DNA of 64,000 bases from Hyphomicrobiales bacterium (lineage in GTDB: Bacteria; Pseudomonadota; Alphaproteobacteria; Rhizobiales; Aestuariivirgaceae), in NCBI GenBank assembly GCA_025359215.1, contig JANYHE010000050.1, positions 1-64,000 of the forward strand. Reading direction: 5' to 3'. Both the position numbers and the translations under genes were made by a program. Every line of letters starts with the position of its first letter. The first letter of the stretch is position 1. The notes below the pieces were generated by a model. That model ran no database searches, was not told where the DNA came from, and saw nothing but the letters and a program-made list of their open reading frames with translations. Below are positions 20,005-40,004 of the stretch, one piece after another.

Positions 20005-20706
20005 TTATGGCCGATAGATTGCCAGAGTTGCGACATGGTGGCCAGAAATCGTAGGAAATTTTAAGCACCAATTTTCAGTGGTTCCGAATTCATGTGGAGG
20101 TTCAACGTTATAGCTTGAATCGACGATAAATTTCTCAGGGCCAAATATAACACCTTGCCCGACTGCCTTGAGGCAAGCCTCCTTTATTGTCCACCGCTTC
20201 AAAAATTCCGTATCGAGATCGAGTGCGGCCCGGTTTTCAAGCAGCAAAGCCTCACGACGATCAAAGAATCTATGGGCTAAAGCCAAAGCGTTCAAAACTG
20301 GCCTTACGTGTTCAACGTCAATGCCGAGTTTTGATGTTGCACTCATCGCGGCAATGGCCATGGTTTTGCTGGACGAAAACGACAATGACGCCGAGGGGGC
20401 CAAGCTGCATATCGGACTTGTATCGCGCTGCTGCTGAAGCGGCAATTTGGGCAGTGGTTCTTTAAAATCGAAAACAACCTTTAAAAAACAACGCTGAAAA
20501 GCACGGCGCAAGGCGAAGTGTCGGGCTTCTTCAATATTTTGCAGCAAACTTATTTTATTCACGTCTTCGGAGGGTAAAGCCAGCAAAGCTTCGCTCAAAT
20601 CAATTTCACTGTCATCCTCAAAGGAGGCAAATTTTATATCGTCTCCAATATTCAGTTGCCAGTTCAAGCGTTGCAGTATTTTTGATTCAATTAAGTCACA
20701 AGTCAT
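20005..20706 (-). CDS. 4'-phosphopantetheinyl transferase, Sfp/AcpT superfamily
   Basis: LGIDVEHVRP and FLKRWTIKEACLKAVGQGV motifs; start taken at MTCDLIESK (20706) because the longer ORF (to 21126) overlaps dctP antisense. Confidence 0.85.
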   Translation of the reverse strand: MTCDLIESKILQRLNWQLNIGDDIKFASFEDDSEIDLSEALLALPSEDVNKISLLQNIEEARHFALRRAFQRCFLKVVFDFKEPLPKLPLQQQRDTSPICSLAPSASLSFSSSKTMAIAAMSATSKLGIDVEHVRPVLNALALAHRFFDRREALLLENRAALDLDTEFLKRWTIKEACLKAVGQGVIFGPEKFIVDSSYNVEPPHEFGTTENWCLKFPTISGHHVATLAIYRP

Positions 20707-20844
20707 AAACGTTATTTTCTCAAACAAGCAGGAACCGCTGCAGACCTCACTTGAGAAAAACTTGTACCAACTGATTCTTAACAAGTTTGGGGCATAGCTA
20801 ACTCTCAATGGGCGGTAATTAAATTTGGAATTCAGGGTAAAGCT

Positions 20845-21822
20845 ATGAAGCGCACTCACTTGTTTGTAACGACACTGCTGGCAGCGGCACCATTCATTGG
20901 TCAAAACGCCATTGCCGCTGAAACTTGGGATATGCCCACGGCCTATCCCGCTACGAATTTTCAGACAGTCAACGCCCAAGAGTTTGCTCAGTGCGTCTCT
21001 GATGGCACAGGCGGCGACATCAATATTGTCATTCATGCCAATGGATCGCTTTTCAAGGGCAATGACATCAAGCGCGCGGTGCAAACCGGGCAAGCTCAAA
21101 TTGGTGAGCGCTTGTTGTCTTCTCACGAGAATGAAAATCCAATCTTTGGAACCGACTCTATTCCGTTTCTGGCAACATCTTATGATGACTCGGTGAAGCT
21201 TTTCACCGCCGCACGCCCTGAGCTTGATAAGGTGCTAGATGCTCAAGGCCTGATGTTGCTCTATTCTGTGCCGTGGCCCCCGCAAGGTCTTTATTTCAAT
21301 AAAGACGTGAAAGACGTTGCCGATATGAACGGCGTGAAAATCAGGTCTTATAATAAGGCCACAGCGCGCCTTTCTGAACTCACAGGCATGGTGCCGATTT
21401 CGATTGAAGCGGCCGAAATCAGCCAAGCATTATCGGCTGGTGTTATCTCATCGCTGATCACTTCGGCTGTGACCGGGCAAGACAGCAAGGTTTGGGAAAA
21501 TCTCAATCACTTTTATGAAGTGAAGGCCTGGATGCCACGCAATGCAGTGATTGTGAACAAAGGCAGCTTTACCGGCCTCCCTGAAAAGAGCCAAGCTGCG
21601 GTGAAAGATTGTGCTGCAAAAGCCGAAGTTGCAGGATTGCAAAAATCGAAAGATGCTAATGATGCAGCGCTTGAAACGTTAAAGAAAAATGGCATGCAAG
21701 TGATTGCCCCTGCTGCCCCCTTTGCAGCCGAGCTTCAAAAAATTGGTGCTACGATGACTGATGAGTGGGTGGCGAGAGCTGGTGGCGCTGGTGCTTCGGT
21801 GATTACAGCCTTTAAGAAATAG
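20845..21822 (+). CDS. dctP: TRAP transporter substrate-binding protein (DctP family)
   Basis: 325 aa, signal peptide, GVKIRSYNKATARLSELTGMVPISIEAAEISQALSAGVI. Confidence 0.9.
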   Translation: MKRTHLFVTTLLAAAPFIGQNAIAAETWDMPTAYPATNFQTVNAQEFAQCVSDGTGGDINIVIHANGSLFKGNDIKRAVQTGQAQIGERLLSSHENENPIFGTDSIPFLATSYDDSVKLFTAARPELDKVLDAQGLMLLYSVPWPPQGLYFNKDVKDVADMNGVKIRSYNKATARLSELTGMVPISIEAAEISQALSAGVISSLITSAVTGQDSKVWENLNHFYEVKAWMPRNAVIVNKGSFTGLPEKSQAAVKDCAAKAEVAGLQKSKDANDAALETLKKNGMQVIAPAAPFAAELQKIGATMTDEWVARAGGAGASVITAFKK

Positions 21823-21835
21823 TCGGAATTCAGGC

Positions 21836-22375
21836 ATGGCTTTGGCCCAGCAATCACATTCAGCAATGAAGACAATTTGGAGCCGGCTTGACCGGCTCTA
21901 TCTCTATTGTGGCTATATGGCAGCGTTTTGCATGGTGTGCATTTTTGCTGTCACCCTGCTGCAAATTGCTGGGCGTTTTGTGGGCTTCAATCCCCATGGG
22001 CTCACCGACTATGTGGGCTATTTCATGGGGGCTTCTGCTTTTCTTGCTTTGGCTCACGCCTTGAACCGCGGCGCGCATGTGCGCATTGAATTGTTTCTTT
22101 CGATGATGGGCCGATTTCGCAAAGTGGCTGAGTGGTTTTCCTTTGCAGCAACATCAGTCATTGCCATTTGGCTTACCTATTACGCTTGGTCGCTGGTTTA
22201 TTGGTCCTATAATTTAGGAGACATCAGCCAAGGCTTGGATGCGACGCCAATGTGGATCCCTCAATCGTCAATGGCTGTTGGAATAACTCTTCTTGCAATT
22301 GCTGTGGTGGATCACGCGCTGCGTCTGGTGCTTACGGGCAATCATGGCATCGGCAAAGCGCCCGACGAACTTTAG
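21836..22375 (+). CDS. dctQ: TRAP transporter small permease (DctQ family)
   Basis: 179 aa; four TM segments; position between dctP and dctM; TDYVGYFMGASAFLALAHALNRGAHVRIELF. Confidence 0.88.
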   Translation: MALAQQSHSAMKTIWSRLDRLYLYCGYMAAFCMVCIFAVTLLQIAGRFVGFNPHGLTDYVGYFMGASAFLALAHALNRGAHVRIELFLSMMGRFRKVAEWFSFAATSVIAIWLTYYAWSLVYWSYNLGDISQGLDATPMWIPQSSMAVGITLLAIAVVDHALRLVLTGNHGIGKAPDEL

Positions 22376-22385
22376 AAAGCCCCTG

Positions 22386-23702
22386 ATGGAACATTTCATA
22401 TTTTTCACAACGTTGTTGCTGCTGTTGGCCTTGTTTCTTGGCAGTGGTGTTTGGATCGGCTTTTCACTGGTCGGTGTTGCAGCGTTTGCAATTGAGTTTT
22501 TTGCTCATCGCTCTTCGGGTGCGCCAATTGCGACAACCATGTGGACGGCTTCATCATCGTGGATGCTTTCGTCATTACCCATGTTCATTTGGATGGGTGA
22601 TATTCTGTTTCGAACCAAGCTGTCAGAAGATCTATTCCGTGGCTTGGCTCCCTTGTTAGGACGCTTACCCGGCGGATTGCTGCACACGAATATTATGGGG
22701 TGCACTCTGTTTGGTGCCGTCTCTGGTTCTTCAGTGGCCACATTGACGACCGTGGCACAAATGACAGTGCCTGAACTGAAAAAACGTAATTATCCCGAGC
22801 GCATGATTGTTGGCACATTGGCGGGCCCTGCAACTTTGGGACTTATGATTCCACCTTCTATTATGATGGTGGTTTATGGCGCCATGACCAATGAATCGAT
22901 TGCTGCCATCAGCATTGCGGGCATTATTCCCGGGCTGGTTTTGGCGGCAATATTTACGGCTTACGTTGCGATTACTTGCACATTTATGAAAGACTTTAAC
23001 CCAACGCCAGAACCAATTACAACCTGGCGTGAAAAAATCTATGCGACGCGGCGATTAATCCCCGTTGTCTTGCTCATGTCGTTGGTGTTGGGCACAATGT
23101 TTGTTGGCATTGCAACCGCGACAGAAGCTGCGGCCTTGGGTGTGGCAGGTGCACTCTCACTGGCTTGGTGGCAAGGCACGCTCAATTGGAAAAACTTCAT
23201 CGACAGTTTGATGGCGGCCACACGCACATCGGCCATGATTGCGTTTGTGCTGCTTGCAGGGTCTGCGCTTTCACTGGCGATGGGCTATACTGAATTGCCA
23301 AATCTGCTGGCAGATTGGGTTGCCACCATGCACCTTTCGGCCTTTGGTCTTTTGATGGTGTTGCTTCTGCTGTATACTATTCTAGGTGGCTTTTTGGATG
23401 GTATTTCTTGCATCGTTTTAACGCTGCCACTGATTGAACCCATGTTGCGGGCTGCAGGCATCGATATGATCTGGTTTGGCATATTCATGGTATTGGTGAT
23501 TGAAAAAGCTCAGATTACGCCCCCTATCGGATTCAATCTGTTTGTTCTTCAAGCCATGACCGGGCATAATATTTTCAAAATTGCGGCTTGGTCTTTCCCC
23601 ATGTATCTGATCATGTTGGGCATGGTGTTTGTGATTATTGCTTTCCCCGGCTTGGCAACATGGTTGCCGCACCAGATGATGCATGTGTTGCCGCCAAGCT
23701 AA
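22386..23702 (+). CDS. dctM: TRAP transporter large permease (DctM family)
   Basis: MEHFIFFTTLLLLLALFLGSGVWIGFSL; MVGTLAGPATLGLMIPPSIMMVVYGAMT; GGFLDGISCIVLTLPL. Confidence 0.92.
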   Translation: MEHFIFFTTLLLLLALFLGSGVWIGFSLVGVAAFAIEFFAHRSSGAPIATTMWTASSSWMLSSLPMFIWMGDILFRTKLSEDLFRGLAPLLGRLPGGLLHTNIMGCTLFGAVSGSSVATLTTVAQMTVPELKKRNYPERMIVGTLAGPATLGLMIPPSIMMVVYGAMTNESIAAISIAGIIPGLVLAAIFTAYVAITCTFMKDFNPTPEPITTWREKIYATRRLIPVVLLMSLVLGTMFVGIATATEAAALGVAGALSLAWWQGTLNWKNFIDSLMAATRTSAMIAFVLLAGSALSLAMGYTELPNLLADWVATMHLSAFGLLMVLLLLYTILGGFLDGISCIVLTLPLIEPMLRAAGIDMIWFGIFMVLVIEKAQITPPIGFNLFVLQAMTGHNIFKIAAWSFPMYLIMLGMVFVIIAFPGLATWLPHQMMHVLPPS

Positions 23703-23775: not shown

Positions 23776-24243
23776 TTATGCGGCTGCGCGCTGGCATTCT
23801 GGTGGCAGGGCTACAATTTGTATCCAATAGTGTCCAACAGTTTTCACAATATCGACCAGTTTATCGAATGACACTGGCTTACAGATAAATGAATTCACGC
23901 CCAAATTGTATGTCTTGATAATGTCTTCCTCAGCTTTGGAAGTTGTCAGTATCACGATCGGAATGCGGTGCAACTCAGCGGATTCTTTAATTTCCTTCAG
24001 CGCAGTCCGGCCATCTTTGCGTGGCATGTTGAGATCGAGCAAAATGAAGCCAGGATAAGGCTGCCCAGCAAGGCTGGAATATTTGCCCTCACGCTTGAGG
24101 TACTCCATCAATTCCATTCCATCTTCGACGAAATCGATTGGGTTGCCCAATTTCGATTCCTCAAAGGCATCGCGGATCATCATCCGGTCATCAGCATCAT
24201 CATCAGCCACGACAATGCGAATTGGGAAGTTGGATTTTATCAT
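23776..24243 (-). CDS. Single-domain response regulator (Rcp1-like)
   Basis: 155 aa; RIVVADDDADDRMMIRDAF, FILLDLNMPRKDGRTALKEIK, TTSKAEEDI, KPVSFDKLVDIV. Confidence 0.92.
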   Translation of the reverse strand: MIKSNFPIRIVVADDDADDRMMIRDAFEESKLGNPIDFVEDGMELMEYLKREGKYSSLAGQPYPGFILLDLNMPRKDGRTALKEIKESAELHRIPIVILTTSKAEEDIIKTYNLGVNSFICKPVSFDKLVDIVKTVGHYWIQIVALPPECQRAAA

Positions 24244-26273
24244 TGCAATTGCTCCAAAGAATCTTGTTTTTGTGGAATTGTTATTGTGAATTTTGAACCT
24301 TCGCCGGGCTCACCATGGGCGACGATGAACCCACCGTGGCGCTCAACAATCTTTCGACAGGTGGCAAGGCCGATGCCGGTGCCTTCATATTCGTTGCGAC
24401 TGTGCAGACGCTGGAAGATTGTGAAGATTTGATCTTTGAATTGATTATCAAAGCCAATGCCATTGTCTTCAATTGTGATAACCAACAGCGCCTCACCCTT
24501 CTCCCCGACCGTTTCAGTTGAATTGATTTTTATGATTGGGTTCACATCTGGCTTCTTGAACTTTAGCGCATTGCTTAAAAGATTTTGAATGAGCTGACGC
24601 AATTGAGTTGGATCGCCTTCAATCGTCGGCAATTGACCTTCCTCAATAGTCGCCTCGTTTTCTTCGATGCGAATTTGCAGATCAGATAAAACATCATTTA
24701 GAATATTACCAAGTGCCACAGGCTGGAATGGTTTGGCGTTGGTTGTCACACGAGAATACGACAACAGATCATTGATCAGGCGGCGCATGCGGCTTGCCGC
24801 ATTATGCATACGGTCAACAAACATTTTACCATCGTCCGGCAAAATGTCGGAGTATTTTTTGATCAGTCGATCGCCGAAGGCTTCAATTTTGCGCAGCGGT
24901 TCTTGCAAGTCGTGCGAAGCCACATAGGCAAAATCGATCAGTTCACGGTTTGAATGCTCAAGCTTCTGCGTGTAAAGCAGCATCGTCTCAGCGTTCTTTT
25001 CCACTTCAGTAATGTCTTGATAGGTGGCAATGGTGCCACCATCTGGCATCGGTTCGTTCATCACCGCAATGATACGACCATCTTTCAGGCGCTGTTTAAT
25101 TGTTGTGCGGGTGCTGAGGCGAGCAGGATCATTGCGTTCTGCCAAGGCCTTATCGGCTTCTTCTTTTGTATAGTTGCCTAAGCTGACGCTGTATTCCATC
25201 AACCCACGCAACGTGATGCCTGGCTTTACGATCTCTGCAGAGAAGCCGTAAATCTCTAAATAGCGCCGGTTCACCACGATCAATCGCTGTTCTTTATCGA
25301 ACATGCAAAGGCCCTGAACCATGTTGCTCAAGGCCATATCAAAATGAAGGTTCTTGGCGTGCAGCTGTTGTGAAATGCGGAGCATTTCAAGCTCGCGCAA
25401 TTTTAGCTCTGTGATGTCTGAACGCGTGCCAACGATGCCACCATCATCGGTGCGCTTTTCGGTGATCAGAATCCAGCGACCATCCGTTTGCTGCACTTCA
25501 ACAGGTTCTGTTGGATTGCGGTGCCGCTCTAAACGCCAGGCCACATATTCTTCAGGTGAACGGCCATTCAAAACGAATGCGCCACGGCGAGTGGACTCGC
25601 GCAACAATTCAACTTTGGCCATGCCCGGCGCGATAATATCTGCGGCCAATGGGCTGTAATCGACATATTTCTTATTATAGAGCACCAATCGATCTGATGC
25701 ATCATAGAGCGCAAAACCGTCGGCCATTACGTCAAGTGCATGAGTGAGGCGTGAACGCGATTTTTCGGCGATCATCTCAAACTGGGTGCTAAGATCAACA
25801 CCTGATGCTGGTGTATCAATTTCACGGGCTGTTTCAACCACGGTGCCGTTGGGTAACCTGCGGCGGCGCACTTCAACAACACTGCCACTTGGTGCTGAAT
25901 AGCGGAATGTATAAGCGGTGCCCGGAACCAGAGCTGTTACAATCCGTTCAATTTTATCGGTAATTTCAGCTTGAGGCACGTTCATGCGGTTATAGGAAAT
26001 GCGGATCAATTCACGCAAATTTTTTCCTGAACTCGCTTCCGATGCTTGGTAACCGCACAGTGATCTGTAAAGCGCATTGCAGGCAAGCAAGGAAAGGCCT
26101 GAGTCAAAAAGTGCCAAGCCAATGTCGGCACCTGCAAAGACATCCGCTATTTCCATACCAGACGTGTTGAGCGCTTCCATCTGCATGTCTTTACCAGCAA
26201 CATCAGGAAGGTACGTCACACGATTTTCTGAATTGTTCATCAAATTATCCCCAATTACGGCGTTATGACACAC
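24240..26273 (-). CDS. PAS-domain sensor histidine kinase
   Basis: 677 aa; several PAS domains; DFAYVASHDLQEPLRKIEAFGDRL; QNLLSNALKFKKP...EDNGIGF...EGTGIGLATCRKIVERHGG; overlaps the response regulator by 4 bp. Confidence 0.93.
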   Translation of the reverse strand: MCHNAVIGDNLMNNSENRVTYLPDVAGKDMQMEALNTSGMEIADVFAGADIGLALFDSGLSLLACNALYRSLCGYQASEASSGKNLRELIRISYNRMNVPQAEITDKIERIVTALVPGTAYTFRYSAPSGSVVEVRRRRLPNGTVVETAREIDTPASGVDLSTQFEMIAEKSRSRLTHALDVMADGFALYDASDRLVLYNKKYVDYSPLAADIIAPGMAKVELLRESTRRGAFVLNGRSPEEYVAWRLERHRNPTEPVEVQQTDGRWILITEKRTDDGGIVGTRSDITELKLRELEMLRISQQLHAKNLHFDMALSNMVQGLCMFDKEQRLIVVNRRYLEIYGFSAEIVKPGITLRGLMEYSVSLGNYTKEEADKALAERNDPARLSTRTTIKQRLKDGRIIAVMNEPMPDGGTIATYQDITEVEKNAETMLLYTQKLEHSNRELIDFAYVASHDLQEPLRKIEAFGDRLIKKYSDILPDDGKMFVDRMHNAASRMRRLINDLLSYSRVTTNAKPFQPVALGNILNDVLSDLQIRIEENEATIEEGQLPTIEGDPTQLRQLIQNLLSNALKFKKPDVNPIIKINSTETVGEKGEALLVITIEDNGIGFDNQFKDQIFTIFQRLHSRNEYEGTGIGLATCRKIVERHGGFIVAHGEPGEGSKFTITIPQKQDSLEQLQ

Positions 26274-26392: not shown

Positions 26393-27343
26393 ATGTTGAG
26401 TACGACGGAACGTTCGATTGTATGTTGGCTATTGGCAGGCACAATCCTGATGGGTTTTTTAGTACCCGGAATTTCAGAAATATTTCAAAAATTTACATCG
26501 GCCAGTCTTTTAGTGATGATCATTTTATCCCTTATTCCAATGGGACGATTTGATTTTGAACAGGTGTTCAGTCTTGATCGCAACGTGTGGCGCGTGGTTT
26601 TGTGGCAATTATTTGTATTGCCGGCCATTGTGGTTGCAGCCGCTCACTTAGCAAGAATTAGCCCATTGATAACCGTGTTGATGGTGACAACTGCATCGGC
26701 AGGATCGCTGTTTGCATCACCAACATTTGCCGAACTTTTGCAGGTGAACAAACAGCGTGCTTTGCAATGCATGATCCTGTCCACATTCTTAATGCCGATA
26801 TCTTATTTCATATTTTTCACCTTGGTCATGCATTCATCAGTGAACATCGATGTGATGAGCTTTCTCAATCGTTGTGTTATTTTTCTGGCGCTTCCACTTG
26901 GCCTGTTTCTGGTCTATATGGGATTTGCCAGAGCATTCCCCGAAAAGTTGGTGATGACATTTGAAGGCGCGTCACGTCGCTTGACTATTTTAGCGTTAAT
27001 CGTGTTTGGCCTGGGAATTGTGGGGCCAGCACGAGATTTATTCTGGAATCATTTCAACCAATTTGTTCTTTATCTTTTGGTGGTGATTTCGCTGGGCGCC
27101 GGCATGGCCTATCTCACAGCTGTGGTCATGTTCAGGCAGGGCATCAATGATGCTATTACCGCCAGCATCGTCAGTGGCTTTCGCAATGTTGGATTGGGAT
27201 TTGTTTTATTGTCAGGCGTGTCTTCTGAAGATACGGCAGTCTATGTTGGTATTTCACAAATACCAATTTTCTTAGCGCCTCTGGTTTTGAGCTTTATTGT
27301 GCGTCGCAGCCGCTCGAACGAAGGCGTATTTGCCACCGCTTAA
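26393..27343 (+). CDS. Membrane transporter, bile acid:Na+ symporter (BASS)-like
   Basis: 316 aa, ~9-10 TM helices; VSGFRNVGLGFVLLSGV resembles BASS family. Confidence 0.6.
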   Translation: MLSTTERSIVCWLLAGTILMGFLVPGISEIFQKFTSASLLVMIILSLIPMGRFDFEQVFSLDRNVWRVVLWQLFVLPAIVVAAAHLARISPLITVLMVTTASAGSLFASPTFAELLQVNKQRALQCMILSTFLMPISYFIFFTLVMHSSVNIDVMSFLNRCVIFLALPLGLFLVYMGFARAFPEKLVMTFEGASRRLTILALIVFGLGIVGPARDLFWNHFNQFVLYLLVVISLGAGMAYLTAVVMFRQGINDAITASIVSGFRNVGLGFVLLSGVSSEDTAVYVGISQIPIFLAPLVLSFIVRRSRSNEGVFATA

Positions 27344-27487: not shown

Positions 27488-28654
27488 GTGAGTAATCTTA
27501 GTTTAAATTTCAGTGAGTTACGGTCTGCCTCGGTAGCAACAGCTGCGCCGAAAGTGGCAAAAGGATTCAAGCCCTCACTCTTTGCATTATCGTTTTTGGT
27601 GGCCACACTGGCCGGTTTGGCTGGTGTTTGGAATGGCAACAAAACTTACGGACCGGAAATGTATGCCGATGACGGCATGGTTCCAGCTGCTGAAGCTTTT
27701 AGCCGTGGCCAAAACTACGCTGTGTTTGATCTCAATCTGAATGTTCGCCATCTAAAAGATGAAACGATAGCAAGATTAACATCAACTCCAGATGTTGTAA
27801 TTCTTGGCGCCAGCCAATGGCAGGAAGCGCATGCCGACCAACTGCCCGGTTATAATATGTACAATGCGCATGTTCACCGCGATTATTGGGAAGATCCGCT
27901 GGCAGTTACCGAAATGCTGGTGCGCCATAACCGTCTTCCTAAAAAAATGATGATCGCTGTTCGCGACTTGCAGTTTACATCTTTGTCCGATCGAAAAGAT
28001 TACCTTTGGGAACCTGGCATTCCATTTTACCGCGACATGGCGGATCGTTTGGGAATTGAAAAAGAAAGCTATTGGGCGTCGCTGCCGATCAATCGCATCA
28101 AAGCACTGTTTTCGATTTCAATGCTGTTTGACAATCTTACCCGTTGGTACACTACCAAAGAGCATCCTCATGCAACGACTGAGCGTCAATTTGATAGTCT
28201 CGATACGCTGTTGCCAGATGGATCAATTGTTTGGTCGAGGAACCACCTAAAATTTTTCACTCAAGAGCGCGCACTGTCTGAAGTTTTAAAGCAGGTGGAG
28301 CTTCGCAAGAATAATACTTTGAATTTGGACCCCGCGGGCATAGCAGCCTTCGAGCACCTCTTGGATTACTTGAAGGCCCAAGGCGTGCAAGTTTACCTGA
28401 CGCATCCTCCATACAATCCACTTTTTTATGATCGTATTCAGGGCACTCCTTTTGCGGAAGGCCTCGCGAAATTGGACGCATTGGTTCAGCGCTGGTCGAG
28501 AGAACGTGACATGCCAATCTTAGGAAGTTTCAATCCCTATGAAGTGGGATGTGACCCTTCAATGTTTATTGATGCCGAACATTCAAATCCAAGCTGCATT
28601 GGCAAAGTGTTGGCACAATTTGCTGCCGTCGACCAAGCAAGGTCTAAGAAATAA
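27488..28654 (+). CDS. Membrane-anchored SGNH/DltD-like hydrolase or acyltransferase
   Basis: GTG start (longer ORF at TTG 27473); N-terminal TM; VVILGASQW block I-like Ser and FIDAEHSNPSCIGK DxxH block V-like motif; immediately upstream of MBOAT. Confidence 0.7.
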   Translation: MSNLSLNFSELRSASVATAAPKVAKGFKPSLFALSFLVATLAGLAGVWNGNKTYGPEMYADDGMVPAAEAFSRGQNYAVFDLNLNVRHLKDETIARLTSTPDVVILGASQWQEAHADQLPGYNMYNAHVHRDYWEDPLAVTEMLVRHNRLPKKMMIAVRDLQFTSLSDRKDYLWEPGIPFYRDMADRLGIEKESYWASLPINRIKALFSISMLFDNLTRWYTTKEHPHATTERQFDSLDTLLPDGSIVWSRNHLKFFTQERALSEVLKQVELRKNNTLNLDPAGIAAFEHLLDYLKAQGVQVYLTHPPYNPLFYDRIQGTPFAEGLAKLDALVQRWSRERDMPILGSFNPYEVGCDPSMFIDAEHSNPSCIGKVLAQFAAVDQARSKK

Positions 28655-30159
28655 TGTCATTCACATCTTATCAATTCATTCTGCTGTTTTTGCCAATTTC
28701 TTATTTGGGCTTCTTGTTGGCTCATCGGTTGGGCGGGTGGCAATGGGCCATTAATTTTCTGGCCGTTCTATCGCTCGCATTTTACGCCATGTGGGGTTTT
28801 TCCTTATTGATTATTCTGTTGGGTTCCTTGGCTTTCAACTATGGCGCAGGCAATGTGATTGCCTGCCTTGGCAATAATCCAAAAGTTGCGCGCAATACAC
28901 TCTTGGGAAGTATTGGTATCAATCTCGCGATTTTGGGCTATCTCAAATATACCAATTTCTTCATTGATCTTGCCAATCAAGCTACGGGTGCTGGTTTTGC
29001 CCACCATGATATTTTGGTTCCGCTTGGGGTTTCATTTTTCACCTTCATCCAAATTGGCTATTTGATTGACGCGTTCAATGGCCAATTGCTGAAGCATGAC
29101 ATTGCAAGATATGTGGTGTTTGCAGCCTTCTTTCCGTGTGTGACAGCAGGGCCATTGGTGATGCAACAGGAAATGATGGCGCAGCTGGATAATCCGCAGC
29201 AGCCAGCCTTTGATGCGCGTCGATTGATTGTGGGGCTCACCATGTTTGGTATGGGCTTGTTCAAGAAAGTTGTTCTCGCAGATACAATTGCACCCTTTGC
29301 AAACCAGGTGTTTGATGGGGCCGCTGCAGGGGTTACGCTCAGCCCTTCACTCGCTTGGATTGGTGCTGTGTGTTACACTTTACAGCTCTATTTCGATTTC
29401 TCTGGCTATTCAGACATGGCCATTGGCATTGGCACCATTTTCGGAATCAAGTTGCCACTGAATTTCGATTCACCTTTCAAGAGCACAAATATTTCAGAAT
29501 TCTGGCGTCGTTGGCACATGACCATGACACGGTTTTTCACCAACTATATCTACTCTGGCTTAGCCATGAAAGGCATGCGCAATAGTTCCAAATGGGGCTT
29601 TGGTCGGGTTGGTCGTTTTGTCTTGGTGGCCGCCATGCCTTCAACTGTCACCTTCTTGGTTGCAGGCGTTTGGCACGGTTCAGGTTGGAACTACGTTCTC
29701 TATGGTCTTTTGCACGGCGTTGCTATTGCGACATTCTTGGCTTGGCGTGAATTCTCCGCCATCAAGCTGCCTGCTGTCTTAGGTTGGGCTATAACATTGG
29801 TGACTGTGATCTCGGGGCTTGTGATGTTCCGTGCGGCCGACGTGCCAGCAGCAATTGGCATTTACTCAAACATGTTGGGCCTTGCTTCACCGGGCACTGG
29901 AACTTTGGTGCTGGACAGTGCGCAGGCCTTGTCGATGGTGGTTCTATACGGCGCAATTACAATGCTGTTTCCAAACACGCAGCAAATCTTGCACCATGAT
30001 TGGCCGGCCATTGATGTGAAGCCTGTAACATCGGCACTTGATGCTGGCCTGTTGGCATGGCGTCCTGCCATTGGCACGGCACTCGTGAGTGCTTGTTTAT
30101 TCACCGTCGCGCTCACCTCAATCGGTAGCGGATCCAGTTTTCTATATTACAAATTCTAA
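28654..30159 (+). CDS. MBOAT-family O-acyltransferase (AlgI/DltB-like)
   Basis: 501 aa polytopic; YFDFSGYSDMAIGIGTIFGIKLPLNFDSPFKSTNISEFWRRWHMTMTRF; GVWHGSGWNYVLYGLLHGV with the MBOAT His. Confidence 0.93.
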   Translation: MSFTSYQFILLFLPISYLGFLLAHRLGGWQWAINFLAVLSLAFYAMWGFSLLIILLGSLAFNYGAGNVIACLGNNPKVARNTLLGSIGINLAILGYLKYTNFFIDLANQATGAGFAHHDILVPLGVSFFTFIQIGYLIDAFNGQLLKHDIARYVVFAAFFPCVTAGPLVMQQEMMAQLDNPQQPAFDARRLIVGLTMFGMGLFKKVVLADTIAPFANQVFDGAAAGVTLSPSLAWIGAVCYTLQLYFDFSGYSDMAIGIGTIFGIKLPLNFDSPFKSTNISEFWRRWHMTMTRFFTNYIYSGLAMKGMRNSSKWGFGRVGRFVLVAAMPSTVTFLVAGVWHGSGWNYVLYGLLHGVAIATFLAWREFSAIKLPAVLGWAITLVTVISGLVMFRAADVPAAIGIYSNMLGLASPGTGTLVLDSAQALSMVVLYGAITMLFPNTQQILHHDWPAIDVKPVTSALDAGLLAWRPAIGTALVSACLFTVALTSIGSGSSFLYYKF

Positions 30160-30168
30160 GGGAAGGGC

Positions 30169-31386
30169 TTGAAAATGAATATGCATATGAAAGATTTTAC
30201 CGAGATTGCGTTGGAATTACCGCGCGAAGTTGACCGCGAGGTTGCGGGCGATATTGAAAAGGAATCGGTTTTCGTTTCACCAATGATTGATCGCATCATT
30301 GTCAACAGCGATGGAAAAACTGCACGCCTTGTAACAAGGCCTGGTGCTGATCTTCAAGTGGCCACTGATAAGGCGTTACGCTTTTTGGCTGTGATGGTTC
30401 GCCAAGTTTCTGGTTTTGAAATTAAAGTTTTTGTGGACACAAAACGCAAAGACACAGGACCCTATCAGATTGGTGTGAATGACGGTTTAGTTGAGCGCGG
30501 GTGGATGCACGATTATGGCAAAGGTCAAGTGGCCTATAGCGGTCCAGTTTTAAAACTTGCGCAGTTGATCAACGAAAAATCGGGCCAACTTTATCACGCT
30601 GCATTTAATGCCATTGATGGACATTACCCCGCGATGATTGATGCCGACACTTTGCACAAGTGCGGCTATTTTGACTCGCATCCCAATGCTGTGACCTTTG
30701 TTGGCAACGTTGTTGAAGATTTCGATGCCATCGAAGAATTCCGTTTGGCCAACTCCTGCTCAGAAGGTGCCTTGATGCCAAAGCAAGAGCACATCCACCA
30801 TGATGGAATGTGTTTAAATCCAGCGGCTTGCTTCCCTTGCTACCCAACACTCACAGGGCAGAAATTTGTTGAAGGTCAATGCTACACATGGCTCGGCCGT
30901 GTGTTCCGCTACGAGTCACGCAATATTAATGGCCTCGACCGCCTTTACGAATTCAACGTTCGCGAATTGGTGTTTGTTGGCGATGAAGATTATGTGCGCA
31001 GCTGCCGTGCCAAAGCCTTGCCAATCGTAGAAGAGTTGGCCTCATTCATAGATATTGATTGCCAAGTGCAAACCGCAACCGATCCGTTCTTCGCAACTGT
31101 TTCTGCTGCCAAAAAGTTCTGGCAGGCAGCACAGGAAGTGAAGAATGAAATCAAAATTCCTGCCCTAGGCAACGATGGCAGCCAAAAAATGCTGGCTTGT
31201 GGATCAATCAATCTCCACGGCAATTTCTTTGGCAAGCGCTTTGATTTTACCTGCGCCAATGGGGAACCTGCACAAACAGGTTGCGTTGGCCTTGGCATCG
31301 AACGTTGGGTTCTTGCTGCATTTACACAACATGGTTTTGAGCCTGCGCGTTGGCCCGAAGCTGTTCGTAACCGTATTTTTTCATAA
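30169..31386 (+). CDS. Amino acid:[carrier protein] ligase, class II aaRS (SerRS)-like
   Basis: 405 aa; class II motif 2-like RVFRYESRN and motif 3-like GCVGLGIERWVLAAF; no tRNA-binding coiled coil visible; followed by a carrier protein gene. Confidence 0.85.
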   Translation: MKMNMHMKDFTEIALELPREVDREVAGDIEKESVFVSPMIDRIIVNSDGKTARLVTRPGADLQVATDKALRFLAVMVRQVSGFEIKVFVDTKRKDTGPYQIGVNDGLVERGWMHDYGKGQVAYSGPVLKLAQLINEKSGQLYHAAFNAIDGHYPAMIDADTLHKCGYFDSHPNAVTFVGNVVEDFDAIEEFRLANSCSEGALMPKQEHIHHDGMCLNPAACFPCYPTLTGQKFVEGQCYTWLGRVFRYESRNINGLDRLYEFNVRELVFVGDEDYVRSCRAKALPIVEELASFIDIDCQVQTATDPFFATVSAAKKFWQAAQEVKNEIKIPALGNDGSQKMLACGSINLHGNFFGKRFDFTCANGEPAQTGCVGLGIERWVLAAFTQHGFEPARWPEAVRNRIFS

Positions 31387-31407
31387 ACAAAACAGGGAAA
31401 TTTAATC

Positions 31408-31665
31408 ATGCAACTCTATCAACTCATTGGCAATGTACTGGGCGTCAATCCTTCAGAATTGAACGAAGATTCAAATGCGCAGAATACTCCGAAGTGGGAT
31501 TCTTTGCGCCACATCGAAGTTGTGTTCGCAATGGAAAATGCATTTCATGTGCGTTTTACAATGCCTGAAATCGCCAGCCTCAGAAAGCTTTCAGACATTC
31601 GCAAATTGCTTGAAGCCAAAAATGTTCGCTTCAACCAAGAGCAAGCGGAACGCAAGTTCGGTTAA
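31408..31665 (+). CDS. Acyl/aminoacyl carrier protein
   Basis: 85 aa; phosphopantetheine Ser in PKWDSLRHIEVVFAMENAF. Confidence 0.9.
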   Translation: MQLYQLIGNVLGVNPSELNEDSNAQNTPKWDSLRHIEVVFAMENAFHVRFTMPEIASLRKLSDIRKLLEAKNVRFNQEQAERKFG

Positions 31666-31696: not shown

Positions 31697-33745
31697 ATGA
31701 TACCGGGTAAGGCCATAAAGCTGCTTGTCGTGGATGATGATGAGGATGATATTTACCTCATTGTTGACGCATTGAATGGCGTTCAAGGAACACGCTATGC
31801 GGTGACAACGGCATCTTCAGCGCTGACAGCGATGGCAAAACTGGCGCAAGACAGTTTTGATGTCATCTTCAGTGATTATCGACTTGGCGCGGTTACCGGG
31901 ATTGACTTCATCAACAGTGTGCGTGGCGCTGGCATTGACACGCCCATCATCCTGTTGACCGGCATTTCTGATCAGCTGATTGACAATGCTGCACTGAAGG
32001 CTGGCTCATCGGACTTTGTTTCAAAAACCTCCATCACTGCGGATGTGCTAGATCGATCGGTGCGCTATGCTTTAGCCCACGCTGACCGACAACGCTTGCT
32101 GCAAACTGTGTTGCGCAGCACTGAATCCGGAATTGCGGTGCTTGACGTTGACGGGAAAATTACATTATGGAACCCGCAATTTCTGGCATTCGCTGAGAAG
32201 GCTTTTGGCAGTGACCCAGAACGCTTTACCAAGCTAAGGGCACTTGCCGCTGAATCTGACGAGCGCGACATTGTGGTGGGAGATTGCATCGTTGAATCTC
32301 ATGTCACACCATTGCCGGATGGTGGATCAATCTTGGCGCTGCATGATGTGACGCAACGCGTGAATGACTTAATGGCCCGAAAGCTAGCCGAAGACAAAAT
32401 CCGCAAAGTGGCTATGCAAGACGCATTGACCGAACTGCCCAATCGGCTGGCCTTTAACGACTATCTGGATGTCAGCATCGCGGCTGCATCTGGGGCAACC
32501 AAAAAACTTGCCGTTCTTTTGTTTGACTTTAATCGCTTCAAAGAAGTGAATGACCTTTTTGGCCATGCGGCTGGCGATCATATTTTGAAATCCGCCGCAG
32601 TGCGGCTGAAGACAGTTCTTACCGAACGAGAATATGTGGCGCGTTTGGGTGGCGACGAATTTGTTCTCATTCAAAGTGATTCAGACAGCAATTCGGCTAT
32701 GGACTTGGCACAGCGTGTTGTTACTTGCTTGTCGGAACCTTTAAACTGGGAATCGAAAATTATCACCGCTGGTGTGAGTGTTGGTGTAGCCCTCTATCCG
32801 AAACACGGAAGCAATCGGCGAGAACTTTTGGCCAATGCCGATTTGGCAATGTATCGCGGCAAAGCCAAAGTGGGTGAGCCAATTTGCATGTTTGATGCCA
32901 AGATGGATCAGTTCATCAGGCATAGGCGTCAGCTGGCGCATGAATTAATTCACGCCATTAAAGGCGACGAACTTTCACTCAGCATGCAAGGTCAATTTGA
33001 AGTCGACAAGGGCAACTTGGCCGGATTTGAGGCCTTGCTGCGTTGGAAGAGCCCGGTTCGTGGCAATATTTCGCCCGCTGAATTTATACCCTTAGCGGAA
33101 GAAACGGGGCTGATTGTCGAAATTGATGAATGGGTGCTCAGACGCTCTTGCACATTTTTAGCGGCAAACAATTGGATACCGCGATTGGCTGTTAATATTT
33201 CGGCCAAAGCCATTTGCCAACCGAGCATTGTTGCTTTGGTTAGGGACATCATTTTAGAGACGGGTGTAGTCGCGGCGCGGCTGGAACTTGAGGTGACAGA
33301 GACTGCTCTCATCTATGATCTCACGCGGGCTTTACACAATTTGAGGCAAATCAAGGCGATGGGAATTTCTATTGCGTTGGATGATTTCGGCACGGGTTAT
33401 TCGTCGTTATCGCTGCTCAATTCCTTCCCCTTTGACCGGATCAAAGTTGATGGATCTTTCATCCAGCAAACAGGAAGTAACGGGCGCGCCGATGCTATTT
33501 TCAAAGCGGTTGTGGGCCTTGGCGAAGCGTTAAATGTGCCCGTTATAGCTGAAGGTGTTGAGACGATTGAACATTTTGCTTTTGCCACTTTAGCCGGTTG
33601 CAAAGAAGTGCAAGGCTATCACCTTTGTCACCCTGTGCCTGCATGCGATTTGGTCTCGATGCGCCAGTATTTGGGCGAAAACATGAAAGCCCAAGACGTT
33701 AAAGATTGGCTGGGAAAGCGTGTTGCCCAAGCCAAAAGCGCTTAA
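31697..33745 (+). CDS. REC-PAS-GGDEF-EAL cyclic-di-GMP turnover protein
   Basis: 682 aa; REC (LLVVDDDEDD, VIFSDYRLG), GGDEF intact (RLGGDEFVLIQ), EAL intact (GFEALLRWKSP, LEVTETALIYD, DDFGTGYSSLSLLNSFPFDRIKVDGSFI). Confidence 0.95.
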   Translation: MIPGKAIKLLVVDDDEDDIYLIVDALNGVQGTRYAVTTASSALTAMAKLAQDSFDVIFSDYRLGAVTGIDFINSVRGAGIDTPIILLTGISDQLIDNAALKAGSSDFVSKTSITADVLDRSVRYALAHADRQRLLQTVLRSTESGIAVLDVDGKITLWNPQFLAFAEKAFGSDPERFTKLRALAAESDERDIVVGDCIVESHVTPLPDGGSILALHDVTQRVNDLMARKLAEDKIRKVAMQDALTELPNRLAFNDYLDVSIAAASGATKKLAVLLFDFNRFKEVNDLFGHAAGDHILKSAAVRLKTVLTEREYVARLGGDEFVLIQSDSDSNSAMDLAQRVVTCLSEPLNWESKIITAGVSVGVALYPKHGSNRRELLANADLAMYRGKAKVGEPICMFDAKMDQFIRHRRQLAHELIHAIKGDELSLSMQGQFEVDKGNLAGFEALLRWKSPVRGNISPAEFIPLAEETGLIVEIDEWVLRRSCTFLAANNWIPRLAVNISAKAICQPSIVALVRDIILETGVVAARLELEVTETALIYDLTRALHNLRQIKAMGISIALDDFGTGYSSLSLLNSFPFDRIKVDGSFIQQTGSNGRADAIFKAVVGLGEALNVPVIAEGVETIEHFAFATLAGCKEVQGYHLCHPVPACDLVSMRQYLGENMKAQDVKDWLGKRVAQAKSA

Positions 33746-35775: not shown

Positions 35776-36225
35776 TTATAGGCCTTTGCGATAGACAATA
35801 AATGACGAGCGTGGAACGATGGTGTCATAAAGCGAACGGGCCGCTGCATTATATTCTTGGGTTTGCCAGTAAATGCGGAATGCACCTTTTTCTTTGGCTT
35901 TTTCTTCGCATGCAAGAATGAGCTTTTTTGCAGCCCCACCGCCGCGCGCATTGGGGTCCACAAATAAATCCTGCAGATAACAAATCTGTTGCTTGCTCCA
36001 TGTGTGATCATGAAAAACATAATTGCAAATGCCGATGACAACACCATCACGCTCAGCAACCAAGGCATCAATGTTGCTTTCGGAATCGAGTATGCGTTTC
36101 CACGTATTGGCGGTTACATCATCGGCAACTTCTGCACGATAGAATTTGACGTAGCCTGCCCAAAGTTCGCGCCAACGCATCTCATCCTTTGCTTCCGCAA
36201 ACCGAATTATTGTTTCAGACATCAA
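35776..36225 (-). CDS. GNAT-family N-acetyltransferase
   Basis: 149 aa; CYLQDLFVDPNARGGGAAKKLILACEEKAKEKGAFRIYWQTQEYNAAARSLYD. Confidence 0.92.
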   Translation of the reverse strand: MMSETIIRFAEAKDEMRWRELWAGYVKFYRAEVADDVTANTWKRILDSESNIDALVAERDGVVIGICNYVFHDHTWSKQQICYLQDLFVDPNARGGGAAKKLILACEEKAKEKGAFRIYWQTQEYNAAARSLYDTIVPRSSFIVYRKGL

Positions 36226-37922
36226 ACAGTTTCCCCGCGTTTCACAGAATCCAGAACAGTTTTGATTTCAGCATCACTCAATTCGTAATCGTGTTTTGCA
36301 GCTTCAGCTGAAATATAGCCGCGCGATAAATCGCGTTTCACCAATGCAGGATCGCGCTCAGTCGCTTTGCCATAACCCGCACCTCCGGGGAATGCCAGCA
36401 TGACGCGCCTGCCGTGGGCCACAAATTGCTTGCCCTTCCCTCGCATTTTCGTGCCGTCATCTTGACCGATAGTGGTGGCAGCGCCATTGGCTCCGCCCTG
36501 CCTGCCACGGGCGGGATGATCGACGCGATCAAACATCGCTTGGAAATCAAACTCGTGGCCTTTCACGGCACCCACTTCCATAAACTGGCCTAGGCCACCG
36601 CGATATTTTCCAGCGCCTCCTGAATCAGGGCGCAGTTCTTTCCTCCAGATAATCACCGGGCCTGTGTGTTCCGTGGCTTCAATCGGCATCGTCATCACAC
36701 CCGATGGGAAAGCCGTGGCGTTAAGACCATCAACAGTTGGGCGCGCCCCTGCGCCTCCTGAGTTAAAGGTGAGAACTTCGGCCCGCACTGTGCCTTCTGG
36801 TGCGGGTTGATCCATGCGGGGGCGCAAAGAGACTTGAAAATTGCAGAGGCAACCGGCCCCTTCAGCGGGCACCAGATGCGGTAGAATTTTATCGAGCGCA
36901 TCATAAACTGTATCTGGAATCATATGACCAATAACATGGCGCAGCGCTACTGGTGCTGGATGCACCGCATTGAGAATGGAATTGACGGGTGCCACCACTT
37001 CGAACGGCGCAAGCGATGCTGCGTTATTTGGAATTTCTGGTGCGATGGCGCATTTCAACGCGTAGCACGCATAGGCCTTGGTATAAACCAAAGGCACGTT
37101 AATGCCTTTTTTATCGAGGCCCGATGTTCCAGTGAAATCTGAAACAATACGATCGGCGAAAATCTCCAACTTCACTTTCAATTCGATGGGTGTGTCAAAT
37201 CCATCGATCGTCATGGCCCCAGTGGCCGTGCTGCGCGGCAAGGCAGCAATGCGCTCCAATGTGGCGCGGCGCGAATTATCCAGAATGAAATGGCTGATGC
37301 CCGCAAGATCATCCAATTCAAACTCGATCATCATTTCAATGAGGCGGCGGTGGCCGATTTCATTGCAGGTGGCGAGTGCATAGATATCACCCACCAACTG
37401 ATCAGGCTCACGTACGTTACCGCGCACGATTTTAATCAGTGTTGCATCAACCACGCCGCGTGTCGCGAGCTTCATGATGGGAATATAGAGGCCTTCTTCA
37501 TAAACGCTGGCCGCATCAGCGCCAAAGCCGCGCCCCCCAATATCGACGATGTGCGCCGTGCAGGCGAAAAAACCAACATGCGCACCTTTATGAAAAGACG
37601 GTGTTACCACGGTGATATCATGCAGATGGCCGGTGCCCTCCCATGGATCATTGGTGATGTAGACATCGCCTTCAAAAATATTTTCACGGCCAATGCGCCT
37701 GATGAAATGACCCACAGCATCTGCCATGGCATTCACATGACCGGGCGTGCCGGTTACGGCTTGGGCCAGCATCTGGCCCGCGAGATCATAAACGCCAGCA
37801 GAAAGATCGCCTGCTTCCCGCACTGATGTGGAAAACGCGGTGCGAACCAAAGCTTGGGCCTGCTCTTCGACCACGGAAATGAGGCGGTTCCACATGACTT
37901 GATTGGCGACAGTTGTTGTCAT
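36222..37922 (-). CDS. hyuB: Hydantoinase B/oxoprolinase family protein
   Basis: 566 aa; NQVMWNRLISVVEEQAQALVRTAFSTSVREAGDLSAGVYD; VYITNDPWEGTGHLHDITVVTP. Confidence 0.93.
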   Translation of the reverse strand: MTTTVANQVMWNRLISVVEEQAQALVRTAFSTSVREAGDLSAGVYDLAGQMLAQAVTGTPGHVNAMADAVGHFIRRIGRENIFEGDVYITNDPWEGTGHLHDITVVTPSFHKGAHVGFFACTAHIVDIGGRGFGADAASVYEEGLYIPIMKLATRGVVDATLIKIVRGNVREPDQLVGDIYALATCNEIGHRRLIEMMIEFELDDLAGISHFILDNSRRATLERIAALPRSTATGAMTIDGFDTPIELKVKLEIFADRIVSDFTGTSGLDKKGINVPLVYTKAYACYALKCAIAPEIPNNAASLAPFEVVAPVNSILNAVHPAPVALRHVIGHMIPDTVYDALDKILPHLVPAEGAGCLCNFQVSLRPRMDQPAPEGTVRAEVLTFNSGGAGARPTVDGLNATAFPSGVMTMPIEATEHTGPVIIWRKELRPDSGGAGKYRGGLGQFMEVGAVKGHEFDFQAMFDRVDHPARGRQGGANGAATTIGQDDGTKMRGKGKQFVAHGRRVMLAFPGGAGYGKATERDPALVKRDLSRGYISAEAAKHDYELSDAEIKTVLDSVKRGETV

Positions 37923-37925
37923 GGT

Positions 37926-40004
37926 TTAAACCTTCCGTGTGAGATCAATGGTGCCATCGGCTTGCGCCACAGCGTTGCGGCTGGATGGCACGATGATGGT
38001 GGTTTCATCTTCAGTAATAATGGCTGGTCCCTGCACCGTTTGGCCCGGCTTCAGGGAATTTCGGTGAATGACTGAAGCGTTGACCACTTTTGAAAGCCCT
38101 GCATCAAATAATATCCGTGTACTGAATATTTCTGCTGCGGAGGGATTGGGCAAGGACGCAACAGGGGCCACTTTTTCAGTGGGTGTTGTGGCATTGACCG
38201 CCCACACCGTGATTTCAATTTCCATGCCTTCGACCGTGCGGCCAAACAAAGCTGCATAATCGGTTTCAAATAATTTTTGGAACGTTGCCACATCTGGGTT
38301 TCGGGCTTGCTCGACGCTTAGCACAATGGGGATTTCCCAACCTTGACCCTTGTAACGCATGTAAGCTTTAAATTCGGCATTGATAGGCGCAACGGCATCG
38401 CAGGAGCGCACAAAACTTGTGGCTTCTTTTTCTAAATCTGCAAGCAGGGTTTTGATGACTGCGGGAGCAAATTGCGAGAGCTTCATATAAACACTGCGAT
38501 TGGCTTCGAAGCTGAAAGGAGCCCGCAAGAAGCCGATGGCGGAACCTACGCCCGCCCCTTGTGGCACCAGCATGCGGGTGATGCCCAGTTTTTCACACAG
38601 GCGGCCCGCGTGAAGCGGGGCTGCGCCACCGAATGCAATCATTGTATAATTTGCTAAGTCCTCACCATTCTCCACAGCGTGAACACGCGCTGCATTGGCC
38701 ATGTTTTCATCCACAACTTCGGCAAGGCCAAAAGCTGCGGTTTGGGCATCCATGTCCAGCGCTTTTCCAAGCACAGTCTCCAATGCCAATGCCGAACTTG
38801 CTCTGTTCAATTTTATTGAGCCGCCCGCAAAATTATCAGGATCGAGCTTGCCCAAAACTAAATCCGCATCCGTGACCGCTGGCTTCACGCCACCTCGACC
38901 ATAGCAGGCGGGCCCGGGTTCAGAGCCTGCGCTTTCGGGCCCAACTCTGATTTGTCGCATCGCATCAACGTGCGCAAGCGAGCCACCGCCCGCACCAATC
39001 TCCACCATGTCAATCACCGGAATCGAGATCGGCATTCCGGAGCCTTTTTTAAACCGATAAGTGCGGGCTACTTCAAACACGCGGCTGGTTTTTGGCGTTT
39101 GATTTTTGATCAGGCAAATCTTTGCTGTGGTGCCACCCATATCAAAGGACAGAACTTTGTCGAGGCCAAATCGCGCCGCGATGTTGGCGGCAAAAACGGC
39201 TCCACCTGCGGGGCCAGACTCCACCAGCCGCACCGGAAATTCAGCCGCACTTTCGATTGAAATAATGCCACCACCGGAATGCATAAGAAATATTTTGCAT
39301 GTCACACCTTCCACATTGAGACGCGCGCCCAAGCGACTGAGATAAGATTTCATCAACGGTTTGATATAGGCATTGGCCACCGTGGTGTTGAAGCGCTCAT
39401 ATTCGCGCATTTGCGGTGAGACTTCGGATGAGAGCGAGATCATCACGCCGGGTAATTTCTCAGCCAGCACTTCGCGGATCATTTTTTCGTGTGCGTCATT
39501 CAAGTATGAATGGATGAGCCCAACTGCAACGGAGTTGTAACCAGCAAGACGAATATCTTCGACAACACGTTCCACATCATCTCTTTGCAGTGGCACCAGC
39601 ACATCACCTTTGGCGCTCACGCGCTCCAAAACAGTGAAGCGGCTTTGGCGCGGCAGCAGCGGCTCTGGCAGAACGAGATTCAGATCATATTGTTCAAAGC
39701 GTGATTCAGTGCGCATTTCAATCACGTCGCGAAAGCCTTGGGTGGTAATTAGCGCTGTCTTGGCGCCGCGCCGCTCAATCAGAGCATTGGTGGCTAGCGT
39801 GGTGCCGTGGATAATCTGGGTGATTTGAGTTGGTGAAATTTTTGCCTTGGCGCAAACCTGCTTCATGCCCTCGATGATGGCATCTTCTGGGGCTGCGTTG
39901 GTCGTCAAAACTTTGGTGGAGTGTTGCTGATCACCAATCTCTAACACCACATCGGTAAACGTGCCGCCGATATCTACACCGAGGCGGATGGAAGTGATTT
40001 TCAT
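37926..40004 (-). CDS. hyuA: Hydantoinase A/oxoprolinase family protein
   Basis: 692 aa; RLGVDIGGTFTDVVLE, HGTTLATNALIERRGAKTALITTQGFRDVIEM, SFDMGGTTAKICLI. Confidence 0.95.
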   Translation of the reverse strand: MKITSIRLGVDIGGTFTDVVLEIGDQQHSTKVLTTNAAPEDAIIEGMKQVCAKAKISPTQITQIIHGTTLATNALIERRGAKTALITTQGFRDVIEMRTESRFEQYDLNLVLPEPLLPRQSRFTVLERVSAKGDVLVPLQRDDVERVVEDIRLAGYNSVAVGLIHSYLNDAHEKMIREVLAEKLPGVMISLSSEVSPQMREYERFNTTVANAYIKPLMKSYLSRLGARLNVEGVTCKIFLMHSGGGIISIESAAEFPVRLVESGPAGGAVFAANIAARFGLDKVLSFDMGGTTAKICLIKNQTPKTSRVFEVARTYRFKKGSGMPISIPVIDMVEIGAGGGSLAHVDAMRQIRVGPESAGSEPGPACYGRGGVKPAVTDADLVLGKLDPDNFAGGSIKLNRASSALALETVLGKALDMDAQTAAFGLAEVVDENMANAARVHAVENGEDLANYTMIAFGGAAPLHAGRLCEKLGITRMLVPQGAGVGSAIGFLRAPFSFEANRSVYMKLSQFAPAVIKTLLADLEKEATSFVRSCDAVAPINAEFKAYMRYKGQGWEIPIVLSVEQARNPDVATFQKLFETDYAALFGRTVEGMEIEITVWAVNATTPTEKVAPVASLPNPSAAEIFSTRILFDAGLSKVVNASVIHRNSLKPGQTVQGPAIITEDETTIIVPSSRNAVAQADGTIDLTRKV

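Follow-up and report, generated by a model that had tools for sequence, protein, structure and literature searches.

A predicted carrier-dependent aminoacyl relay with a seryl-tRNA-synthetase-like activator in Alphaproteobacteria

Four core genes at the locus

A 64,000-nt stretch of contig JANYHE010000050.1 from Hyphomicrobiales bacterium (Aestuariivirgaceae), referred to below as the window and the frame for all coordinates given without a locus number, carries an operon that probably specifies an envelope or extracellular aminoacylation system working through a carrier protein. Four tightly packed open reading frames (ORFs), all on the plus strand, form its core. They encode a predicted SGNH/DltD-like acyltransferase anchored by a transmembrane (TM) helix (27488, with a GTG start, or 27473, with TTG, to 28654), a predicted membrane-bound O-acyltransferase (MBOAT; 28654-30159), a predicted amino acid:[carrier protein] ligase resembling seryl-tRNA synthetase (SerRS; 30175, ATG, to 31386) and an 85-aa phosphopantetheine carrier protein (31408-31665). 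The SGNH and MBOAT genes overlap by one base, and 15 and 21 bases precede the ligase and carrier genes, respectively. The array is not due to chance, since it recurs across families. No structured RNA was found between 20 and 41 kb of the window, and a promoter/terminator scan gave no excess over shuffled sequences.

An earlier interpretation made from the letters alone (the sequence-only reading) had described these genes as a tightly packed plus-strand set: a TM-anchored SGNH protein with GAS and DxxH motifs, an MBOAT with the catalytic His region, a SerRS-like ligase with class II motifs 2 and 3, and an 85-aa carrier with a WDSL site. The ORF positions and gaps, together with the motifs and matches that follow, bear out this description. 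In the SGNH protein, a single TM helix is predicted at the N terminus and the GAS and DAEH motifs are conserved; its catalytic triad, Ser109 (27812-27814), Asp362 and His365, is aligned in all members, including that of the actinomycete Nonomuraea gerenzanensis (see below). Its AlphaFold2 model has a pLDDT of 90.7, and each of the 12 Foldseek matches in the PDB with E<0.001 is a DltD. It scores below the cut-off of the Pfam DltD family, and hhalign gave no match to DltD; the protein is thus best described as DltD-like in its modelled fold but distant. The carrier matches the PP-binding family (PF00550, 5e-4), with Ser32 (31501-31503) in the WDSL site.

The ligase and its likely amino acid

The best sequence matches of the ligase are methanogen-type SerRS (mSerRS; 3w3s, 1e-30) and the Bradyrhizobium Gly:[carrier protein] ligase Bll0957 (3mey, 3e-29). 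The model is moderate (pLDDT 75), and its best fold match is again mSerRS (1.7e-22), followed by Bll0957 (~4e-17). The zinc ligands C219, E264 and C370, the motif-2 Arg245 and the motif-3 Arg377 are invariant in the ligases of the module, and the motif-2 loop, of SerRS length, and motif 3 resemble SerRS, not the Gly:[carrier protein] ligase. At its N terminus, the ligase has about 120 additional residues, which align with part of the corresponding region of mSerRS. In the ligase tree, the module enzymes form one clade apart from the canonical amino acid:[carrier protein] ligases, and their join with SerRS is weak (86/60). A translational, methanogen-type SerRS was ruled out by scores far below cut-off (133.7 bits against 611 for the NCBIfam SerRS equivalog, with a length of 403 aa against 518), by the apparent lack of a full tRNA-binding domain and by the operon context. 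Membership of the canonical ligases was likewise ruled out by the score against their equivalog NF005479 (152.8 bits against a cut-off of 357), the separate clade and the different neighbours.

The sequence-only reading had suggested that such an operon would explain what the orphan Bradyrhizobium and Agrobacterium ligases are for. This was not supported: the canonical enzymes belong to another clade and sit in clusters of carrier protein, acyl-CoA dehydrogenase, ligase and DUF1839 genes, with an MBOAT near none of the 10 loci checked. Since they occur in other gene contexts, the module does not explain them. A further SerRS-like ligase lies, with a carrier and acyl-CoA and hydroxyacyl-CoA dehydrogenases, in a nonribosomal peptide synthetase (NRPS)/polyketide synthase cluster on a plasmid of Streptomyces sp. 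NBC_00557 (L158:5410-8912), a gene set that one would expect to convert serine into an aminomalonyl-type unit.

The substrate of the module ligase is most likely L-serine, as judged from sequence. A Bradyrhizobium ligase mutant is said to gain serine activity; we did not find this in the literature and did not use it as evidence.

The MBOAT and its terminal shuttle motif

The MBOAT (PF03062, 4.1e-22; phmmer match to DltB 6bug, 5e-31) has its catalytic His341 (29674-29676) in a WHGSGW region. Its last six residues, FLYYKF (30139-30156), form an FXYXXF acyl-shuttle motif with Tyr498 as the predicted acceptor. In the Dlt system, the MBOAT passes D-Ala from the carrier to the Tyr of the FXYXXF motif in DltX, which hands it on to DltD; in PatA, the MBOAT itself carries the motif as a fusion, and the charge comes from acetyl-CoA (PMC12148441). 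Because the FLYYKF end matches the FXYXXF of both DltX and PatA, the shuttle appears to be fused to the MBOAT here. The sequence F[LIV]YY is common to all module MBOATs (the DltX control motif is FIYNEF).

The DltB-like nature that the sequence-only reading gave this protein was not confirmed. DltB orthology was ruled out by the TIGR04091 score (180 bits against a cut-off of 375, ordinary AlgI-type MBOATs scoring 148-165) and by the tree, where the protein falls in the AlgI/PatA-type radiation, outside the DltB branch. Grouping with the AlgI/PatA acetylation systems had been named in advance as a result that would speak against a Dlt-like scheme; the MBOAT does lie in that radiation, but in a distinct clade of its own that is always carrier-linked. 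Twelve alignment columns separate the module MBOATs, Nonomuraea included, from 26 ordinary MBOATs, among them Thr296 (Arg in the others) and Tyr499 (Phe in the others). Of 21 ordinary MBOAT loci, just one had a carrier gene nearby, at a distance of 6.6 kb.

Two other loci deserve mention. Plasmid pTM1 of Tistrella mobilis (L169:3312-9247) has genes for an acyl carrier protein, a methyltransferase and a HAD-IIIC (FkbH-like) protein next to those for an MBOAT and an adjoining hypothetical protein. This MBOAT, too, may be fed by a carrier, with an activator of a third type. In a genome of the same genus as the window (G007, L136:13949-15672), a separate pair of adenylation (A) domain and carrier stands in a surface-sugar cluster, 5 kb from an ordinary MBOAT.

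Conservation and spread

Among 100 related genomes, 12 orthologous ligases were found besides that of the window, the intact ones being 66-85% identical, plus one deleted in its core; ten canonical ligases, at ~30% identity, were clearly separate in the same search. A scan with one genome per species yielded 31 ligase loci, all from alphaproteobacterial metagenome assemblies (Hyphomicrobiales, Neomegalonema, Kiloniellaceae and one Rhodobacteraceae bin). Counted by hand from the locus table, the genome G160 included, and restricted to loci whose contig permits scoring, the ligase has the carrier gene behind it in 29 of 29 and the SGNH-MBOAT pair ahead of it in 28 of 30. The co-occurrence of the ligase with MBOAT and SGNH genes in Alphaproteobacteria that the sequence-only reading had anticipated is thus present. 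The core-deleted ligase, of 165 aa, lacks its catalytic core (G087, L039:7304-7801); no A domain was found near this module, which looks decayed.

The module is rare: apart from the window's own genome, a class-wide search using the ligase profile brought up a single one. In the phylum sample (397 genomes), an SGNH-profile search had no match other than the window's own. A literature search, subscription papers being outside its scope, found no description of an MBOAT together with a SerRS-like ligase.

Replacement of the activating enzyme

The strongest evidence that the four proteins act as a relay is, in our reading of the genomes, the exchange of the activating enzyme. One alphaproteobacterium, G049, has a fused transporter-SGNH gene, the MBOAT and the carrier at one locus, and no module ligase was found in it in the 100-genome search; a free-standing A-domain gene sits beside the module, beyond divergent regulators. 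Its MBOAT scores 775 bits; most MBOATs of ligase-bearing modules score 757-885 (637 in L092), and other MBOATs no more than 464. The operon of Nonomuraea gerenzanensis runs SGNH, MBOAT, carrier, an NRPS-type condensation-adenylation (C-A) protein and a 4'-phosphopantetheinyl transferase (PPTase), with no ligase. The thiolation (T) domain of the C-A protein is degenerate and its serine is missing. The Nonomuraea proteins match those of the module at 35% (2e-67) for SGNH, 40.5% (1e-127) for the MBOAT and 36% (1e-16) for the carrier.

In the MBOAT tree, G049 is nested inside the ligase-bearing clade, beside L075, and Nonomuraea stands at the base of the module clade, which is retained when long branches are left out. 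We take this to mean that on at least one occasion an NRPS-type enzyme took the place of the ligase while carrier, MBOAT and SGNH protein were kept, and it is mainly because of this replacement that we believe all three activators to feed the same relay. On one point these comparisons give the sequence-only reading good support, namely that the role of DltA falls to a tRNA-synthetase-like enzyme: the carrier lies next to it in 29 of 29 scorable loci, the SGNH-MBOAT pair in 28 of 30, and an NRPS-type stand-in occurs in two other lineages.

At each of the nine specificity positions that align, the A domain of G049 has the same residue as EntF (DVWHFSLVD, a serine code); the aligned Nonomuraea residues are DLYNLSLIW. 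The names of these positions follow the published codes.

Neighbouring genes and fusions

The operon is larger than the sequence-only reading described. A gene for a BART-superfamily-like multi-TM transporter (26393-27343, plus strand; weak PanS-like and Mem_trans matches, nine hydrophobic segments) ends 144 bases upstream of the SGNH gene. We count it in the module because other loci have the two genes as one: they are joined in frame (810-827 aa) in five related ligase loci and in G049, with fusions recorded in L035/L076, L075, L093, L039 and L127. In another fusion, that of G160 (L147:7328-9034), a TM helix links a response-regulator receiver domain to the SGNH protein; a histidine kinase and a response regulator are encoded upstream. 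This arrangement suggests that the transfer step may be controlled directly.

Across loci, the module regularly adjoins genes for a histidine kinase, a small response regulator and a GGDEF(-EAL) protein. In the window, according to Pfam matches, these encode a PAS histidine kinase (24240-26273, minus strand), a small response regulator (23776-24243, minus strand) and a response regulator-PAS-GGDEF-EAL protein (31697-33745, plus strand). The last, which adjoins the module in most module loci, likely has a regulatory function. An Sfp-type PPTase (~20005-20760, start approximate, minus strand; PF01648, 7.9e-14) lies ~6 kb from the module and is a candidate for the carrier-activating enzyme; a PPTase is also found near the module in G023 and comes next in the Nonomuraea operon. 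The transporter-like gene, the FLYYKF motif, the PPTase and the conserved kinase, regulator and GGDEF-EAL neighbours are all absent from the sequence-only reading. Between the PPTase and the regulators lies a TRAP transporter, DctP-DctQ-DctM (20845-23702), of which DctQ-DctM recur near several module loci. Hydantoinase A/B genes lie at 36222-40004, and a HyuA-HyuB pair is also present 3' of the module in L036/L079.

Proposed mechanism and alternatives

What the sequences show is how the genes are ordered and fused, which motifs and active-site residues they encode, and that the activator has been exchanged; from this we infer each of the following reaction steps, as well as serine as the substrate and the nature of the acceptor. 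The zinc-dependent SerRS-like ligase would adenylate a small amino acid, with L-serine the likeliest, and attach it to the carrier's phosphopantetheine arm; the MBOAT would bring the aminoacyl group through the membrane to Tyr498 in the FLYYKF at its own C terminus; and the anchored SGNH protein would take it on Ser109 and pass it to an acceptor outside the cytoplasm. Regulation or supply of the system is the probable role of the transporter-like domain, the histidine kinase, the response regulator and the GGDEF-EAL protein. We put the probability that the module is a carrier-dependent envelope or extracellular aminoacylation system at roughly 0.78. The fuller version, in which an aaRS-derived ligase feeds an MBOAT/SGNH relay that esterifies the acceptor with L-serine, and in which the activator has been exchanged between aaRS-like and NRPS-type enzymes, seems to us only a little better than an even bet.

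Several observations weigh against the proposed aminoacylation system. Three divergent regulatory genes stand between the A-domain gene of G049 and the operon, and the A domain could instead serve the glycosyltransferase/radical-SAM cluster that its gene adjoins. Two loci (L074 and L089) keep regulators, ligase and carrier with neither SGNH nor MBOAT between them; both are metagenome assemblies, and gene loss or misassembly may account for the gap. The Nonomuraea residues DLYNLSLIW, read by eye, are presumably a cysteine code, so the amino acid need not be identical everywhere. The TM-score between the SGNH protein and DltD is only ~0.4, and the MBOAT is phylogenetically of the AlgI/PatA type, whose studied members use acetyl-CoA.

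This last point, together with the fused shuttle motif and the loci that retain ligase and carrier without an MBOAT, is what one would expect if the MBOAT-SGNH pair were an ordinary acetyl-CoA-dependent O-acetyltransferase, studied AlgI/PatA-type members using acyl-CoA (PMC12148441), and the ligase-carrier pair performed separate cytoplasmic chemistry, co-transcribed through shared regulation. We consider this improbable. The carrier-MBOAT linkage is near-perfect across families and a phylum boundary with the activator alone changing, carriers are seldom found at ordinary MBOAT loci, and the module MBOATs are a clade apart, marked by conserved residues that set them off from the others. For the acceptor, the sequence-only reading had proposed LPS, a glucan or another polysaccharide. 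The acceptor raises another question, since the product might be a secreted aminoacylated small molecule or lipid and not a polymer, the fused transporter domain bringing the acceptor to the SGNH protein. The fusions in several genomes fit this, as do the occurrence of the module in a monoderm actinomycete and in diderm alphaproteobacteria, with few envelope polymers in common, and the carrier-based aminoacylation of a lipid by AlmEFG (PMC4790380). We think it unlikely, given that known MBOAT/SGNH pairs modify polymers (PMC12148441) and that Nonomuraea has no transporter-like gene.

The identity of the amino acid in the ligase-bearing operons is where we would most readily be corrected. It may be glycine or alanine, as in the characterised amino acid:[carrier protein] ligases; PDB entries name Bll0957 a Gly:[carrier protein] ligase, and the Nonomuraea A domain already departs from serine. 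This has a real, if minor, share of our expectation, because the module ligases stand apart from the Gly/Ala ligases and keep SerRS-like motifs 2 and 3, and the nested G049 operon carries a serine code.

If the proposed serine relay is correct, one clade of tRNA-synthetase-like carrier ligases acquires a concrete downstream use, and a Dlt-type relay would be modular, two unrelated activating enzymes being able to charge the same carrier, MBOAT and SGNH set. A new surface modification, a serine ester, would be predicted in uncultured Alphaproteobacteria, and a related one in a cultured actinomycete.

Comparison with known systems

The module would share with Dlt the path from amino acid adenylate to carrier, to the Tyr of FXYXXF by way of an MBOAT, and on to an SGNH protein; a carrier is in the operon and the best fold match of the SGNH protein is DltD. 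It differs in having a SerRS-like class II ligase in place of DltA, NRPS-type A domains occurring only in G049 and Nonomuraea; in lacking DltX, the fused shuttle motif making a small ORF unnecessary; and in an MBOAT outside the DltB branch, a probable serine substrate and Gram-negative hosts. With PatA/PatB and AlgI-type systems it has in common the MBOAT branch, the conserved His and the fused C-terminal FXYXXF. Those systems have no carrier and use acyl-CoA, whereas the module operon contains both a carrier and an amino acid activator, and its FLYY, against their FxYF, is accompanied by 11 other distinct columns.

The amino acid:[carrier protein] ligases of Bradyrhizobium and Agrobacterium (Mocibob 2010, as cited in PMC9437257) have the same SerRS-derived catalytic core, zinc ligands and adjacent carrier gene. 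The module ligase is ~30% identical to them, forms a separate clade and has a longer N-terminal domain and a motif-2 loop of SerRS length, while the neighbours of the canonical enzymes are acyl-CoA dehydrogenase and DUF1839 genes. For the canonical system, a note of 2010 had already suggested that a sugar amine at the cell surface receives the amino acid (PMC2922099). AlmEFG, which adds glycine to Vibrio lipid A, is likewise a Dlt-like, carrier-based aminoacyl esterification in a Gram-negative host, but its scheme is described without an MBOAT, an SGNH protein or an aaRS-like activator (PMC4790380). What is new here, as predicted from the genomes, is a carrier-dependent MBOAT/SGNH aminoacyl relay that combines an aaRS-like activator with a fused shuttle.

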